53,696 bases of DNA, taken from the NCBI GenBank assembly GCA_028280955.1, contig JANQKU010000081.1:1-53696 (forward strand). The letters run 5' to 3'. Origin of the DNA: Opitutaceae bacterium. Its GTDB lineage: Bacteria > Verrucomicrobiota > Verrucomicrobiia > Opitutales > Opitutaceae. Position 1 is the stretch's first letter. Each line of letters opens with the position of its first letter. The translations under genes and the position numbers were made by a program. Below, in pieces: positions 21,113 through 27,455 of the stretch. The notes under the pieces were generated by a model. That model saw nothing but the letters and a program-made list of their open reading frames with translations, was not told where the DNA came from and did not search any database.

Positions 21113-21144
21113 GAGGCTCCGGTAGGTATGTAAACCGGAGCCTC
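21113..21144. terminator. Perfect 11-bp hairpin between convergent genes
   Basis: GAGGCTCCGGT (21113-21123) and ACCGGAGCCTC (21134-21144) form a perfect 11-bp GC-rich stem with a 10-base loop. It lies between the possible small gene (plus) and the PfkB gene, whose stop codon touches its edge. Neither strand has a U-tract after it, so it is either a weak bidirectional terminator or an mRNA 3' stabiliser. Confidence 0.55.
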
Positions 21145-22061
21145 TAGGGAGCGTCTAGAGAAGCCAAATCAAAATCGGCAATACCTCCTGACGCGGCATT
21201 TGCGGCAGCTAGAGGGAGCGCAAATTGAATGGCTTGTTTGAGATGACTTTTGTTTTCAAAAAGTGAATATAATAAACCGGCAAAGAAAACATCTCCCGAT
21301 CCGACTGGTGATACTTCGTCTGTAGCAGGTGGTGTGACAGAATTGATTTCCATATTTTCACAAATGCTCCAGATCTTGTTTGGTCCGTCTGTGACAACCC
21401 ATTCTTTGACCGGCCATTTTTCTTTAGCTCTCTGGAGTAAGATTGTCATCTGATCATCACTGGGGATTCCTTCACAATCCATTAATCCGGCAAATTCTAC
21501 TCGATTGATTTTCACCAGAGAGAGGGGATAAGCCACCAACCAGGAAAGGGCAGGGCCGTAACAATCAACGGCTAAAGGACGTTTACTCAGCCAGTTTTTA
21601 CATAAATCCCTAAGCGGTTCCCATACCTCAGAGTCCCATCTTTGAACAACACCGCAAATGGCCAGAACAGTATCGAGATTTTGTGTCTCCAGATAGGTGG
21701 CACATGCTTGAACACTCTCCAGTGAAACGCTGCTATCCAAACCGAGATAAGTGGTCTCCTTCCGAGCAGGAGCTCTTATCACAGCTCCACTGCGGGTTTC
21801 ACCCTCTGTGGGAAAGGCTTTAATAGGAAAATTTCTTTCTTTAAACCACGCATCACATCTCTTTCCAATTTCCCCTCCGGGAAAACAAATAGCCCTGGTT
21901 GAGCTGTTAAGACGCGTCAACATTTTGCTGACATTAATGCCTTTGCCTCCTACTTGGAAAAACTCATCGCTTGCCCTTTGTGTTTTTCCTTCTTCCCAGG
22001 CATTGAAAGTATAAGTTGTCTCTGCCAGTAAGTTTGCAGTGAAAGTGAGAATCGTTGGCAT
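21144..22061 (-). CDS. PfkB-family sugar kinase, 1-phosphofructokinase-like
   Basis: A 305-residue ribokinase-fold kinase. The N-terminal substrate signature GGKGINVSKML and the preceding EGKTQRASDEF resemble 1-phosphofructokinase/tagatose-6-phosphate kinase (FruK/LacC). The C-terminal motif is SPVGSGDVFFAGLLYS, with the catalytic Asp in GSGD, where the usual form is GAGD. It probably phosphorylates fructose-1-phosphate or a related sugar phosphate in the cytosol. No fructose PTS gene is adjacent, so the substrate is inferred only from the N-terminal motif. It diverges from the DNA glycosylase gene. A second, longer frame on the same strand upstream (to 22188) is a shadow. Confidence 0.87.
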   Translation of the reverse strand: MPTILTFTANLLAETTYTFNAWEEGKTQRASDEFFQVGGKGINVSKMLTRLNSSTRAICFPGGEIGKRCDAWFKERNFPIKAFPTEGETRSGAVIRAPARKETTYLGLDSSVSLESVQACATYLETQNLDTVLAICGVVQRWDSEVWEPLRDLCKNWLSKRPLAVDCYGPALSWLVAYPLSLVKINRVEFAGLMDCEGIPSDDQMTILLQRAKEKWPVKEWVVTDGPNKIWSICENMEINSVTPPATDEVSPVGSGDVFFAGLLYSLFENKSHLKQAIQFALPLAAANAASGGIADFDLASLDAP

Positions 22062-22129
22062 GAAGTGAGGAGAAATTGATTTCTTCTCCGTCGCAAATTA
22101 TTTTACACTTAGAATTTAGATTAAAACAG

Positions 22130-22642
22130 ATGGTGCATCTACTTACTCCAGAACACTTGAAGAGTTCGAATACTGTTTCTTTGGCCAAACGATTACTAGG
22201 TAAACACCTGGTTCTAAAAAATGGGGAAGCCCATATGATTACTGAAGTGGAGGCATATGACGGGCCAGACGATCTTGCCTGTCATGCCAGCCGTGGACGG
22301 ACCAAACGAACAGAAGTGCTCTTTTCCCCAGGAGGTATCTGGTATGTGTATCTCATATATGGAATGCATGAAATGCTTAACCTTGTCACAGGTCCTCAGG
22401 ACTATCCAGCAGCCATTCTTATTCGTGGACTGGAAGGAATCAGCGGTCCCGGACGTTTAACACGCGCTCTAAACATCGATAGACGTTTCAATGGACTCGA
22501 AGCAACTCCTCAGATTGGACTGCATATCGAAGATCGTGGGACAAAAATAGTCCGAAAACGTATAAAAACCACACCGAGAATTGGTATCGACTATGCCGGT
22601 CCTATCTGGTCACAAAAACCGTATCGGTTTTTACTTACTTGA
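22130..22642 (+). CDS. mpg: DNA-3-methyladenine glycosylase (AAG/MPG family)
   Basis: A 170-residue glycosylase of the mammalian AAG type that removes alkylated purines such as 3-methyladenine. The motifs are LAKRLLGKHLV, ITEVEAYDGPDDLACHAS (catalytic Glu in EVEAY), WYVYLIYGMHEMLNLVTG and AAILIRGLEG, followed by GPGRLTRAL. The frame is open to a TTG at 22076, but the ATG at 22130 gives the better N-terminus (MVHLLTPEHL). Its 3' end overlaps the convergent TRAP permease gene by 8 bases. At 170 residues it is slightly short for the family (about 190-200) but keeps all the motifs. Confidence 0.92.
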   Translation: MVHLLTPEHLKSSNTVSLAKRLLGKHLVLKNGEAHMITEVEAYDGPDDLACHASRGRTKRTEVLFSPGGIWYVYLIYGMHEMLNLVTGPQDYPAAILIRGLEGISGPGRLTRALNIDRRFNGLEATPQIGLHIEDRGTKIVRKRIKTTPRIGIDYAGPIWSQKPYRFLLT

Positions 22643-24497
22643 AAACATTGGGTAACCAAGTGGTCAAGAAGGGGAGGTAAGTGATAAACAGAATGCTCAC
22701 CAAAAAAACCAATAGCATAGGTATTGTCGCGCGAATGACTTCAGGTAAAGGCTTGCCGAATCGATAAGACGAAAGAAATAAATTCATGCCAACCGGTGGC
22801 GTTAGATAACCGAGTTGTAAGTTTGCCAAAAAGATAATGCCCAGATGAATCGGATCGATGCCAAAGGCCAATCCAATTGGGATCAAAAGCGGAACCACCA
22901 CAATGATGGCTGAAAAAATATCCATCAAACACCCGACCAAAAGTAGGAACACATTTAAAAGAAGCAAAAAGACCCATTTGGAAGTAATCGTGCTGGTTGC
23001 CCAATCCACTGCTAAATCCGGAATCTGGGCATCGATCAGATAATTGGTAAAGCCCATGGCAACTCCCAGGATGAGAAGAACACCTCCCACCAATAGTCCA
23101 CATTCAGCCATTACTCTGGGAACATCCCTTAGTAAATGCAGATCACGATAAATAAAGACCTCGATGCAAAGAGCATAGAGGGCGGTAAGAGCCGCTGCTT
23201 CCACGGGAGTAGCAAAACCACCAAAAAGTGAAACAAGCGCCACAACGGGCAATAAAAGTTCCCACTTAGCTTCCCAGGCCGCCTGGTAAGCCTCTTTCCC
23301 ATTAAAACGTTCTTTTTTTGTTTTTGTGTTAACTCGTCTTGACCTCGTGATGCCCCACCAAGCGGTTAGCCCTACTAAAAGGATTCCCGGTAGGAGACCA
23401 CCGAGAAAAATGGCTTTTATCTCCACCTGTGCTCCCGAATTTGTGGCAATAACAGCGTAGAGGATAAGAGGAAGACAAGGTGGAAAAAGAACACCTAGTG
23501 AACCCGCTCCGGTCAGTAGACCAATCGCATTACGTTCAGAGAAGTTGGCTGCAACTAATACCGGTAGAAGCAAGCCTCCCAGCGCGAGAATGGTCACACC
23601 GGAAGCACCCGTAAAAGTAGTAAAAAAAGCGCAAACTAAAGTTGTCACAATGACTGGACCTCCACGAATTTGCCCGACCAATGAGAGAAAAACTCGAATC
23701 AATCTCTTAGAAGCGCCACCTTCGGCCAAAAAATAACCAGCCAAAGTGAAGAGAGGGATTGTTGCCAGTGACGGGTTCACCACCATCTGATAATGATCCA
23801 GAGCAATAGAAGCGATAGGGCTTTCTTCTCCCCAGAAGAGGATGAGAGCTGCGCCACCTAGAAGAGTAAAAATCGGAGCTCCCAGAATTGCCGCGCCCCC
23901 CATCCCAAGTAAACAAGGCAGGACCAAAGACTCCGGTGATACAGGCGGGAAGATCCCTAAAAGAATCGCTCCACTGGAGAGGATGATAGTTACTAGTCGG
24001 CCTTTCCATCTCTCAGAGCTAGTCCACCATAACCGAAGCGCAATAATGGCAAAAGCAATCGGCAGAATGGCTTGTACAGTCCAGGTGGGAATATCAAAAA
24101 TTAGAATTTTACCAAATTTGTGTGAACTTTGGGCAAACTGAACACTACCCAGACAAAGAAAAACTGTAATGGCAGTGGCAAAAGAATTGGCGCCAATCTT
24201 TGCGTATGCCGTCCAACGTTCATTAAGAAAACTACTCAAAGTTGAAAGAGACAACAGTCTTTGATCGCGGGCAGCCAAAATACCACCGATCATCCCCACT
24301 AAGAGAACCAAATGTTGAACGATGACAGTGACACCCGAAATCCCGGTTTGGAAAAGTTTCCGCAGAAAAATCTCAACTACTGGTAGGAGCATCATAGCTC
24401 CAAGAGCCAGTGATGTAAGAAGATTCTCCGAATAAAAAATCCCTCTGGAAAGAGGAGAGGCTGGCCTCTTTTTTTCTACCTCAAAACCGTGACTCAT
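22635..24497 (-). CDS. TRAP transporter permease, fused small and large subunits (DctQM)
   Basis: A 620-residue membrane protein. The first ~180 residues form a four-helix DctQ-like region (VEIFLRKLFQTGISGVTVIV, then LAARDQRLLSLSTLSSF). Residues ~190-620 are the large DctM permease, with markers such as TTFTGASGVTILALGGLLLP and GAGSLGVLFPPCLPLILYAV. YLTPPVGMNLFLSSYRFGKP lies near the C-terminus. It imports a solute using the ion gradient together with the DctP protein encoded 14 bases upstream. An AAGG lies about 9 bases before the ATG. Substrate is not determined by sequence; TRAP systems mostly carry organic acids. QM fusion is known in some TRAP families. Confidence 0.93.
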   Translation of the reverse strand: MSHGFEVEKKRPASPLSRGIFYSENLLTSLALGAMMLLPVVEIFLRKLFQTGISGVTVIVQHLVLLVGMIGGILAARDQRLLSLSTLSSFLNERWTAYAKIGANSFATAITVFLCLGSVQFAQSSHKFGKILIFDIPTWTVQAILPIAFAIIALRLWWTSSERWKGRLVTIILSSGAILLGIFPPVSPESLVLPCLLGMGGAAILGAPIFTLLGGAALILFWGEESPIASIALDHYQMVVNPSLATIPLFTLAGYFLAEGGASKRLIRVFLSLVGQIRGGPVIVTTLVCAFFTTFTGASGVTILALGGLLLPVLVAANFSERNAIGLLTGAGSLGVLFPPCLPLILYAVIATNSGAQVEIKAIFLGGLLPGILLVGLTAWWGITRSRRVNTKTKKERFNGKEAYQAAWEAKWELLLPVVALVSLFGGFATPVEAAALTALYALCIEVFIYRDLHLLRDVPRVMAECGLLVGGVLLILGVAMGFTNYLIDAQIPDLAVDWATSTITSKWVFLLLLNVFLLLVGCLMDIFSAIIVVVPLLIPIGLAFGIDPIHLGIIFLANLQLGYLTPPVGMNLFLSSYRFGKPLPEVIRATIPMLLVFLVSILFITYLPFLTTWLPNVFK

Positions 24498-24511
24498 AAT
24501 AGAATACCTTA

Positions 24512-25519
24512 TTATGGTGACCGTCTGTATTCTTTTACGAGAGATTCCACCTCATCAAAAATATTTGCAGGAACAAGATTCCCTCTGATCTCCGGATAAA
24601 ATTGCTTTGTTACCTTCTGCCACTGTTCCATCTTTTGTTCATCCACAGGATGAACTTGTAAATTCCACTTTTCCTGCATCGCTTTTACTGCGAGATTACT
24701 CTCCCTTCGACCGGCTTCTCTAATAGCGATACCCGTTTTTTGCGCTGATTCCAGTAGGGCTGGTTTGAATTCATCAGGAATGCGCTTCCAGCTCCTTTCC
24801 GTAATAACGGCAGCTCCAATCAGAGGCGCCCAGTTGAGATCGAGCATGTTTGGAGCCGGACCAAAGACTTGGCCTGAAAGGGCATAAAAAGGCGGCATCG
24901 GCACAGCCTCAATCAATCCGGTTTGCAAACTGGTTAAAATGTCAGCTGTTTCTAATGGCACAACATTGAATCCGGCCGATTTCATGATGGCCGCTTGTTT
25001 AGGATCACCTGCCCAGGTAAACAGTTTTAATTTCTGAAAATCATCAGGTGTAAGGGCTGGTTTTTTAGTAAAAAACCGAACAAAGCCAACGTCTGTCCAA
25101 AAAAGCACCATGAAACCCTTCTCTTTCATTTTTTGCTCTAATTTCGGTTTCATCTTTTCTGAAACATAATCAAATTCATCCAGATCGTTAAACATCATCG
25201 GCATAACCTGCAAACCTGTCACTGCAGGTTCAATCTGTGATAACCCCGTCCCCGTGAGCAGTCCGGCTTGCGTTTGATTAATGGCCATACGCTCAACCAT
25301 CGCAGATTCTCCACCTTGAATACCCCCCGGATAAATGATGACATTGAGTTCCCCTCCGGAAATCTTACGCCAATCACTGGCCATTCGTTGAAGTGATTTA
25401 TGAAAGGAAGATCCCTTGGGAGCGAGTGTGGTAAGTTTGATCCGTTGTTTGGCGATTACCAGCCCAGGTAAACAAATAAAAAGCAGAAGGATGAAAATGG
25501 ATTTCGTCGGTAGCTTCAT
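24512..25519 (-). CDS. dctP: TRAP transporter substrate-binding protein (DctP family)
   Basis: A 335-residue periplasmic receptor with a signal peptide (IFILLLFICLPGLVIA, cleaved after ~residue 23). The mature part begins KQRIKLTTLAPKGSSFHKSL, typical of DctP-type proteins. It contains the block GGELNVIIYPGGIQGGESAM, followed by the segment around AGLLTGTGLSQIEP and the C-terminal helix EAVPMPPFYALSGQV. The conserved arginine that binds carboxylates in DctP proteins would be near residue 150 (DVGFVRFFTKK), which supports an organic-acid ligand, but this is inference. It is the middle gene of tatT-like/dctP/dctQM on one strand. The ligand is unknown. Confidence 0.92.
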   Translation of the reverse strand: MKLPTKSIFILLLFICLPGLVIAKQRIKLTTLAPKGSSFHKSLQRMASDWRKISGGELNVIIYPGGIQGGESAMVERMAINQTQAGLLTGTGLSQIEPAVTGLQVMPMMFNDLDEFDYVSEKMKPKLEQKMKEKGFMVLFWTDVGFVRFFTKKPALTPDDFQKLKLFTWAGDPKQAAIMKSAGFNVVPLETADILTSLQTGLIEAVPMPPFYALSGQVFGPAPNMLDLNWAPLIGAAVITERSWKRIPDEFKPALLESAQKTGIAIREAGRRESNLAVKAMQEKWNLQVHPVDEQKMEQWQKVTKQFYPEIRGNLVPANIFDEVESLVKEYRRSP

Positions 25520-25594
25520 GATTTTAAATGATCAGATGATGGCCATAGGAGTCATAGCCTTGGCAATCTTAAAACTCGAAAAACAAGGAATCAC

Positions 25595-26518
25595 TCAATT
25601 GAGAAAGAGTAAATCTGTCCGTCCAAGGAGCCAACGAGCTCGTTTTTGATAGATAAGATTTGTCAATCGCCACTCAGGCCGATCGTCAGGATTGATAGCA
25701 AGCGCTTGTTCTAAAAGATTGGTAAATTCTTCTAGATTATTTTCCGGAATAGAAACCGCTTCAGCTAAAGCCAGGTAAGGCGACACCATCTGACCCTTTG
25801 AAAGTTCAATTGCCCGGGAGAAATGTTCACGGGCACGGTCTGCCGGATCGCCTTTGCCTCCCTGTCGGATCATTTCATAGGTAATAAGAAAACTATGGAT
25901 CGCTCCACTATCGTAGCTTTCATCCAGCTGCAAAGCTCTGTCGATCAATGCTTCTACGATAGTGAGATCACTCACCATGACAGGATCGTCAACGGAAAGA
26001 CCGATGGCAGCCAACCAGGAAACTGCAGTCCAGTAGAGAAGGGGAACATCTTCTTTATCAGTGAAAACGACTGCCTCGAGCGGATTACTCCGAAGTAATG
26101 CTTCAAAATCTGGGTTGTCCACAGATAGACCTCTCAACCCATAATTTCGTGCCCTCAGGTAGAGACGTTTGGCTCGTTCCTTGGAAACTTCGGCTGCTTC
26201 GAAGTCTGTATCTTCCAGGATTTCTGCCTCTTGTTGCACAAAAGCGTATCCGTACTGGGTGAATCCACTAGCTGTTGCAAAAAGAAGGCCGGCATGGTCG
26301 GGCGATTCAGCCAACAAGCTCTCCATTAATTTCAAACTGAAAGGAAGTGCCTCTCTGATTAATTCCGGATCATCGTCCGAGCTGAAAGTTGTGCCACCTT
26401 TGGACAGAGCGTCTCCCATTTTGTTAACCGCAAGTTCATTGATCGAACAGCCTGAGAGCAAGGAACATATGGATACAAGAACAATGAGACGTTTAGCCCA
26501 TTTTTTTTGAGGGAACAT
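25595..26518 (-). CDS. TRAP transporter TatT-type lipoprotein
   Basis: A 307-residue lipoprotein when started at the ATG at 26518 (MFPQKKWAKRLIVLVS), with lipobox LLSGC giving the lipidated Cys at about residue 24. The body is helical and ends in TPR-like pairs (ADRAREHFSRAIELSKGQM, FTNLLEQALAINPDD). Together with the DctP and DctQM genes downstream this matches the TatT family known from Treponema pallidum (Tp0956), a trimeric TPR lipoprotein that docks to the TRAP receptor. It therefore probably tethers or assists the periplasmic receptor. The longer frame to 26554 adds 12 unlikely residues. The assignment relies on context plus general sequence character. Confidence 0.85.
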   Translation of the reverse strand: MFPQKKWAKRLIVLVSICSLLSGCSINELAVNKMGDALSKGGTTFSSDDDPELIREALPFSLKLMESLLAESPDHAGLLFATASGFTQYGYAFVQQEAEILEDTDFEAAEVSKERAKRLYLRARNYGLRGLSVDNPDFEALLRSNPLEAVVFTDKEDVPLLYWTAVSWLAAIGLSVDDPVMVSDLTIVEALIDRALQLDESYDSGAIHSFLITYEMIRQGGKGDPADRAREHFSRAIELSKGQMVSPYLALAEAVSIPENNLEEFTNLLEQALAINPDDRPEWRLTNLIYQKRARWLLGRTDLLFLN

Positions 26519-26576
26519 ATCGTATGGGGTACTAAGAAGATACAGATGATTCAAGAATGAAGTGGATAACCTACTC

Positions 26577-27455
26577 TTAACTTCCGTTACGTCGCTTCTT
26601 TTTAGTCAATTCGATTTTTGGAGATTTATAGTAATGCAGGCGAAGTTTCGCCGTTCCGATGGCAATCTTCACTTCAAGCAAAACAGGAAGTCTGATATCA
26701 TCGTTGGTAATCCAGACGGCGACACGTCCACCATCTGCTAAAATTCCGGAAGGACGAAATTCCATTCGAGGAACGAGTTTAAACGCTTCTTTTTTTCCAA
26801 AAGCAGTAGAAATCTTTTTCTTTTCGACAACATCAATATCGGCAAGATAGACTTTGCCATCGCCCGCAATGAGAATAGGGTAGGAGTTACCGACTTCCAG
26901 ATCCCAGGCTCTTGCCTGTAAAAGAGCCGAAATAAAATCAAGGGGATGAGAGTAAGGCAATTTAATTGAGGCGTTTTGATTGGGATCAGCTTCACTTCTA
27001 AAATGAAGAAAATTCCCTTCGTAATCGATCTCAGTTATATTCCGGCCCTTTTTTTTCCCAGCCTGTCCTTCCGCATCAATCCAAAGTAGACGCCATTCTA
27101 TGGGATCAAGATAAGTGCTAGCGTTTGCATCAACCCCATACAAGGCCCGTATGAATCCAGAAGTTTGGAAAGAAGTCTTCAAATGGAACACTTCTTTATC
27201 CTCCCGCTCCACCATGTTTGTTTTAACATTTATCTTTCCCACATTTCGAAAGATTCCCCAACCCGCTTTAAAGCGATATTCTTCTCCGGAAACAAATGCA
27301 TGAGCTCTTTCTTCCGGCGTGGGAAAGGTTACCTCCGGCCATGGCTCTTCCTCAACAGACTCATTCCCCCATAATATCAGGTTATAAAAACCAGACAGAG
27401 TCAAAAAACAGTGGAAACAAATTCTTGAAAGAAGTGAGGACATATCAGGAATCAT
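26577..27455 (-). CDS. DUF3108 domain-containing protein
   Basis: A 292-residue protein with an N-terminal hydrophobic segment (ICFHCFLTLSGFYNLIL) that is probably a signal peptide, so it acts in the periplasm or outer membrane. Residues ~55-285 have the DUF3108 pattern: YRFKAGWGIFRNVGKINV, then alternating strands including the ASTYLDPIEWRLLW and MEFRPSGILADGGRVAVWIT blocks, ending in IGTAKLRLHYYK. The basic Lys/Arg cluster at the C-terminus (KKKRRNGS) is unusual. It lies 58 bases upstream of the tatT-like gene on the same strand and could share its transcript. The function of the family is not known. Confidence 0.87.
   Translation of the reverse strand: MIPDMSSLLSRICFHCFLTLSGFYNLILWGNESVEEEPWPEVTFPTPEERAHAFVSGEEYRFKAGWGIFRNVGKINVKTNMVEREDKEVFHLKTSFQTSGFIRALYGVDANASTYLDPIEWRLLWIDAEGQAGKKKGRNITEIDYEGNFLHFRSEADPNQNASIKLPYSHPLDFISALLQARAWDLEVGNSYPILIAGDGKVYLADIDVVEKKKISTAFGKKEAFKLVPRMEFRPSGILADGGRVAVWITNDDIRLPVLLEVKIAIGTAKLRLHYYKSPKIELTKKKRRNGS

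Follow-up and report, generated by a model that had tools for sequence, protein, structure and literature searches.

What does a bacterium with a single TRAP (tripartite ATP-independent periplasmic) transporter import through it, and which of the genes beside the transporter belong to it? The question is raised by a contig of an Opitutaceae bacterium of the Verrucomicrobiota (assembly GCA_028280955.1, contig JANQKU010000081.1; hereafter the window, meaning the whole analyzed stretch of 53,696 nucleotides), in which genes for an exported DUF3108 protein, the lipoprotein TatT, the periplasmic binding protein DctP and a fused DctQM permease (hereafter QM) stand side by side on the minus strand. 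All four open reading frames (ORFs) listed by a first-pass annotation were confirmed by position and family, each exceeding its Pfam cut-off, and neither the gene set nor the family matches are due to chance. That observation is weak where it implies that all four genes form a single unit, since DUF3108 lies outside the cassette. The reading preferred here, to which we assign a probability of about 0.78, is that a three-gene cassette tatT-dctP-dctQM was inserted in the ancestor of the genus between convergent MPG and DUF3108 genes, and that it imports its ligand through a DctP lacking the arginine of classical TRAP systems.

TatT identifies the class of transporter. The window protein scores 268.7 bits against the TAtT family (PF16811, cut-off 26.5 bits), and a single-sequence search matches it to T. 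pallidum (Treponema pallidum) TatT (PDB 3u64, E 9e-34) and to BstC (8g52, E 6e-10); with a 19-row TatT profile the values are 4e-51 for 3u64 and 6e-26 for the sterol-binding BstC. An AlphaFold2 model (predicted local distance difference test score, pLDDT, 92.1) is a helical ring with hairpins resembling tetratricopeptide repeats (TPR). It superposes on 4di3_A, the TatT chain of the TatT:TatP(T) complex, with a Z-score of 33.3 and a root-mean-square deviation of 1.9 Å over 267 residues, and on 3u64 with a Z-score of 33.1, followed by the BstC-type structures (26.9 for 8g52, 19.2 for 7t1s) and then by an unrelated chain at 18.2. TatT is a predicted lipoprotein, judging by eye from a lipobox (LLSGC) whose cysteine is invariant across 45 aligned sequences; the ATG at 26518, immediately ahead of the signal sequence and lipobox as judged by eye, is its likelier start. 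The binding protein belongs to PF03480 (DctP) and not to the TAXI family of TAXI-TRAP systems. By sequence, fold and gene order the module is a bona fide TatT-associated TRAP (TPAT) system of the kind known from T. pallidum, as had been proposed. Profile searches of the source genome (3.68 Mb, 286 contigs, about 86% complete) matched TAtT, DctP and DctM once each, always within the cassette, so that no second TRAP system was found there.

The same three genes recur as a unit elsewhere. Two sets of loci were compared. The first comprised 40 TatT regions fetched out of 56 places, counting that of the window, at which TatT matched in 387 Verrucomicrobiota genomes; the second comprised 80 named loci, the top-ranking ones among 276 TatT relatives from a scan of GTDB contigs. 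DctP and QM both adjoin TatT in 37 of the 40 phylum regions and 64 of the 80 named loci. When called genes at 91 loci were clustered, TatT was present at 87, DctP at 81 and QM at 75, the next commonest neighbor family reaching 7; no conserved fourth gene of any kind was found among these 91 loci, a result limited by mechanical gene calls and short contigs. As no neighbor recurs, neighboring genes gave no lead to the substrate. Seven named loci (L124, L139, L146, L153, L164, L168 and L179) hold TatT, or TatT and DctP, with no adjoining QM despite room for one. DctM is encoded elsewhere in six of these seven genomes, all six with at least one window-type copy 52–68% identical to the window QM, which supports the three proteins working together even when unlinked. 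TatT matches occur in 49 of the 387 genomes, 44 of them over the cut-off, and one planctomycete bin (G391; L141, L221) holds six TatT-family matches, five above cut-off. The suggestion that the locus widens the range of the class is thus weak: TPAT systems are already common in Verrucomicrobiota, and the window cassette adds one well-formed example to a transporter class that is known but seldom studied.

DUF3108 shows no such attachment to TatT. A profile that recovers the window DUF3108 and all 20 fetched DUF3108 control regions matched in none of the 40 phylum regions, three of which (L054, L072 and L077) show less than 1 kb upstream of TatT. DUF3108 was likewise found in none of the 80 named loci, 70 of which extend 2 kb or more upstream of TatT (L157 and L142 apparently repeat L041 and L042), and in none of 35 additional loci with flanks of about 1.5 kb, so that the total stands at 0 of 155 loci, repeats among them included. 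Six of the additional loci came from a separate search, five of these apparently repeating named loci, and the rest from a draw of genomes centered on a betaproteobacterial bin, in which DUF3108 is nonetheless present in 212 of 321 genomes. The refuting condition that the first-pass annotation had set for its proposal was thus put to the test, and the outcome went against DUF3108 as a component. One result points in favor of the proposal, a co-occurrence across whole genomes of the phylum: DUF3108, found in 145 of the 387 genomes, occurs in 36 of 44 TatT carriers vs. 109 of 343 non-carriers (p 2e-10, kinship ignored). In the window's own family the figures are 8 of 8 vs. 26 of 29 (p = 1), and in the betaproteobacterial-centered draw 59 of 75 vs. 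153 of 246 (p 0.008), a weak excess. Shared ancestry and genome type may account for the co-occurrence of what are unlinked genes.

How, then, did DUF3108 come to lie next to TatT? Its usual neighbor in the family is the MPG glycosylase gene. Twenty-two same-family DUF3108 loci were fetched from the 34 same-family genomes with a match (window included), and in 19 of them MPG is convergent with DUF3108, the other three having no MPG match. The gap between the two genes is -119 to +49 nt in 13 of the 19 and 713–1464 nt in six, and PfkB is also present in 13 of the 22 loci. The window order is PfkB, MPG, QM, DctP, TatT, DUF3108, with MPG convergent with QM and its final 8 nt overlapping the QM end. 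The cassette thus sits exactly between two genes that are usually convergent neighbors, and the adjacency to DUF3108 was therefore made by insertion. The only other genus member examined (G387, locus L100, 75% complete) has TatT, DctP, QM, MPG and PfkB in that order on a contig of 4465 bases. This contig shares 74% identity with the window, and its QM and MPG genes join at their ends as in the window; the rest of that 75% complete genome gave no DUF3108 match. One insertion preceding the split of the two species is the simplest reading. DUF3108 as a TPAT component was rejected on the missing linkage and on its own MPG synteny, by which it appears as a bystander, and it is not worth chasing as a TPAT subunit.

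Composition and phylogeny of the cassette were also considered. Recent import found no support in composition, the GC content at third codon positions of TatT, DctP and QM being 0.415–0.420 against a mean of 0.391 (standard deviation 0.029, range 0.347–0.450) for 14 other window ORFs. Promoter and terminator scans performed at chance level and were not used. A FastTree phylogeny of the concatenated genes of 76 cassettes places the window with L118, L147, L151 and L171 (bins of Verrucomicrobia and Opitutales; support 95) and the remaining cassettes of its family at three or more separate positions; the label Verrucomicrobiota needs nine changes on this tree. These changes suggest repeated movement of the cassette, although mis-binned contigs and paralogues could contribute to the number. 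The features of the locus are collected in Table 1; the DUF3108 stop is separated from TatT by 22 nt if TatT begins at TTG or 58 nt if it begins at ATG, TatT from DctP by 75 nt and DctP from QM by 14 nt.

Table 1. The TPAT cassette and its flanking genes in the window.
Feature	Position	Strand	Basis
DctQM, fused TRAP permease, Q and M in one 620-aa protein	22635..24497	-	Pfam DctQ 52.1 bits at 35-156, DctM 254 bits at 204-609
DctP, periplasmic TRAP substrate-binding protein, Arg-less TatT-linked kind, Phe167	24512..25519	-	Pfam DctP 121 bits; alignments; residue counts
TatT, predicted lipoprotein with TPR-like helical ring	25595..26518 (ATG, preferred) or 26554 (TTG ORF)	-	Pfam TAtT 268.7 bits; PDB 3u64; AlphaFold2 model; lipobox
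DUF3108 exported protein, neighbor outside the cassette; resident partner of the family's MPG locus	26577..27455	-	Pfam DUF3108 82.6 bits; synteny in relatives; model
MPG, 3-methyladenine-type DNA glycosylase, left edge of the insertion	22076..22642	+	Pfam MPG 157.8 bits; synteny
PfkB-type kinase, marker of the ancestral locus PfkB - MPG - DUF3108	21144..22061	-	Pfam PfkB 70.6 bits; synteny

What might the cassette carry? In classical DctP proteins an arginine holds the carboxylate of the ligand and acts as a carboxylate filter; excerpts of a survey report it in 5943 of 6142 sequences and name phenylalanine as its commonest replacement (PMC4646407). With the column set by alignment to 4ng7, 4x04 and 4xfe (all arginine) and to TatP(T) (alanine), the window DctP, whose signal peptide is of the plain type by eye, has Phe167 at this position, where the classical carboxylate importers have the equivalent of SiaP Arg-147. 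Among 111 DctPs of TatT loci the column holds phenylalanine in 85, tryptophan in 23, tyrosine in two and a gap in one, so that all 110 readable residues are aromatic; a further 35 TatT-linked DctPs, about five repeating the earlier set, gave 26 tryptophans, seven phenylalanines and two gaps (33 of 33 readable aromatic). As a control, 18 relatives were searched, of which 14 yielded 30 DctPs. Eighteen of these proteins had not yet been counted as TatT-linked, and they carry 16 arginines, one asparagine and one tryptophan. The tryptophan protein (L212, G290) adjoins a second TatT of the same genome, so that among the 17 DctPs without TatT linkage, taken from the same genomes or from relatives, 16 have arginine and one asparagine. 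Across the 30 DctPs an aromatic residue was thus present wherever TatT was linked and nowhere else. A tie between the replacement by phenylalanine or tryptophan and TatT linkage was not found in open-licence PMC literature on TPAT, TatT, DUF3108 or Arg-less DctP, a weak negative, as two 2012 papers on TatT structure fall outside that coverage.

The residue also differs with the form of the permease. Loci with a fused QM have phenylalanine in 74 of 74, and those with separate Q and M have tryptophan in 23 of 24 and phenylalanine in one (L158); this split follows lineage and is therefore not independent evidence. L158, from a Syntrophorhabdus bin, is the sole TatT locus found to combine phenylalanine with separate Q and M. 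At two loci with tyrosine in the column, L144 and L146, no QM was found on the locus, L144 ending just after DctP.

Loss of the carboxylate-clamping arginine argues against a carboxylate ligand; the ligand of the window system is likely a non-carboxylate molecule and probably hydrophobic, on sequence grounds. The locus could instead encode an ordinary carboxylate importer to which a TPR lipoprotein was merely added, as its DctP and QM fall in the general DctP and DctM families and the ligand of this DctP is not known; yet the arginine is missing from the window protein and from every readable TatT-linked DctP while 16 of 17 unlinked ones retain it, and a carboxylate system is accordingly unlikely. 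That the cassette is ancestral between MPG and DUF3108 and was lost in the rest of the family is distinctly unlikely: its ordinary base composition and its position beside MPG in both known genus members would fit, but where TatT occurs in other family members it lies apart, adjoining neither MPG nor DUF3108, and the family's cassettes lie in separate parts of the tree.

The structure of DUF3108 lends some interest to a third alternative. Its model (pLDDT 85) is closest to EipB (DUF1849, a Brucella envelope-integrity protein; 6ntr; Foldseek E 1e-7, probability 1.00, TM-score 0.5–0.65), followed with weak TM-scores by LprG, a YmcC-like protein and LolA; no PDB sequence matched DUF3108 with an E-value under 1. 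The model is thus nearer EipB than the YmcC fold assigned to DUF3108 in an excerpted report (PMC4364669). EipB, LprG and LolA have folds that hold lipids or lipoproteins, so DUF3108 might be a lipid-binding barrel that hands the ligand to TatT in the window genus and was fixed as a true fourth component by co-transcription. The shared strand, the short gap to TatT and the genome-level co-occurrence all favor such a role, but DUF3108 was never found near TatT at the other loci, keeps its own neighbors MPG and PfkB where TatT is missing, and is present in nearly all family members that lack TatT. That DUF3108 is a fourth component is accordingly very unlikely. From the model an envelope role of DUF3108 is plausible, whereas a role in the window transporter is not indicated; co-transcription with TatT in the window genus is possible.

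The insertion of a three-gene cassette with an Arg-less DctP remains the preferred account, and several observations weigh against it. Csal_0678, an Arg-less DctP, binds ethanolamine, a small polar ligand, according to the same excerpts (PMC4646407), so that loss of the arginine is no proof of a hydrophobic ligand. TatP(T) of T. pallidum itself carries alanine, not an aromatic residue, at this column, and no ligand of any complete TPAT system was found in the literature covered. The only TatT relative with a measured ligand in that literature, BstC, is described in extracts as working beside a PhnD-like protein and a resistance-nodulation-division (RND) transporter, not a TRAP system (PMC10942540). 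To these are added the phylum-level co-occurrence of DUF3108 with TatT and the right-hand (DUF3108) edge of the insertion, which is not visible in G387 as that contig begins inside TatT.

On the preferred account, the insertion would have given DUF3108 its place as same-strand neighbor of the cassette. The lipid-anchored helical ring of TatT would, by analogy with the T. pallidum work, capture a periplasmic molecule that is hydrophobic or otherwise not a carboxylate, and would dock on DctP with its pore aligned to the DctP cleft. DctP, with an aromatic residue in place of the clamping arginine, would deliver this molecule to the fused QM permease for import driven by an ion gradient. More tentatively, and with somewhat less than even confidence, the small Arg-less fraction of DctPs may be largely this TatT-linked class: a separate non-carboxylate branch of TRAP transporters in at least Verrucomicrobiota, Acidobacteriota, Planctomycetota and proteobacterial groups, occurring in two forms (phenylalanine with fused QM; tryptophan with separate Q and M) and traveling as a mobile, self-contained cassette for lipid-like molecules. 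The exchange of arginine for an aromatic residue is a useful by-product, a one-residue sequence mark of TatT-linked DctPs that lets the question of TPAT import be tested in harmless bacteria, not just in T. pallidum.

How does the window system compare with those already described? T. pallidum has one dctP, one fused dctQM and tatT, and its TatT docks on the DctP cleft, as outlined in extracts of one report (PMC5812351). Its TPAT system (TatT-TatP(T)-TatQM; Tp0956-Tp0957 and permease) resembles that of the window in the sequence and fold of TatT, the adjoining DctP-type protein, the fused QM, the Arg-less DctP and its standing as the sole TRAP system of the genome. Tp0957, however, has alanine at the arginine position and a hydrophobic pocket (PMC4646407, in part) and is described as a lipoprotein (PMC5812351, in part), whereas the window DctP has phenylalanine and a plain signal peptide. 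BstC of Methylococcus capsulatus, the sterol-binding T-component, shares the TatT superfamily and a helical ring, which in BstC encloses a hydrophobic tunnel (PMC10942540, in part). Its partners are the RND pump BstA and the PhnD-like BstB, in contrast to DctP and QM in the window, where the genes flanking TatT are those for DctP and DUF3108. DUF3108 for its part resembles the EipB and LolA-like barrels in its modeled fold. Classical DctP systems such as SiaPQM share the DctP, DctQ and DctM families with the window but have the selectivity arginine (PMC4646407, in part) and no TatT; the window system has phenylalanine and TatT instead.

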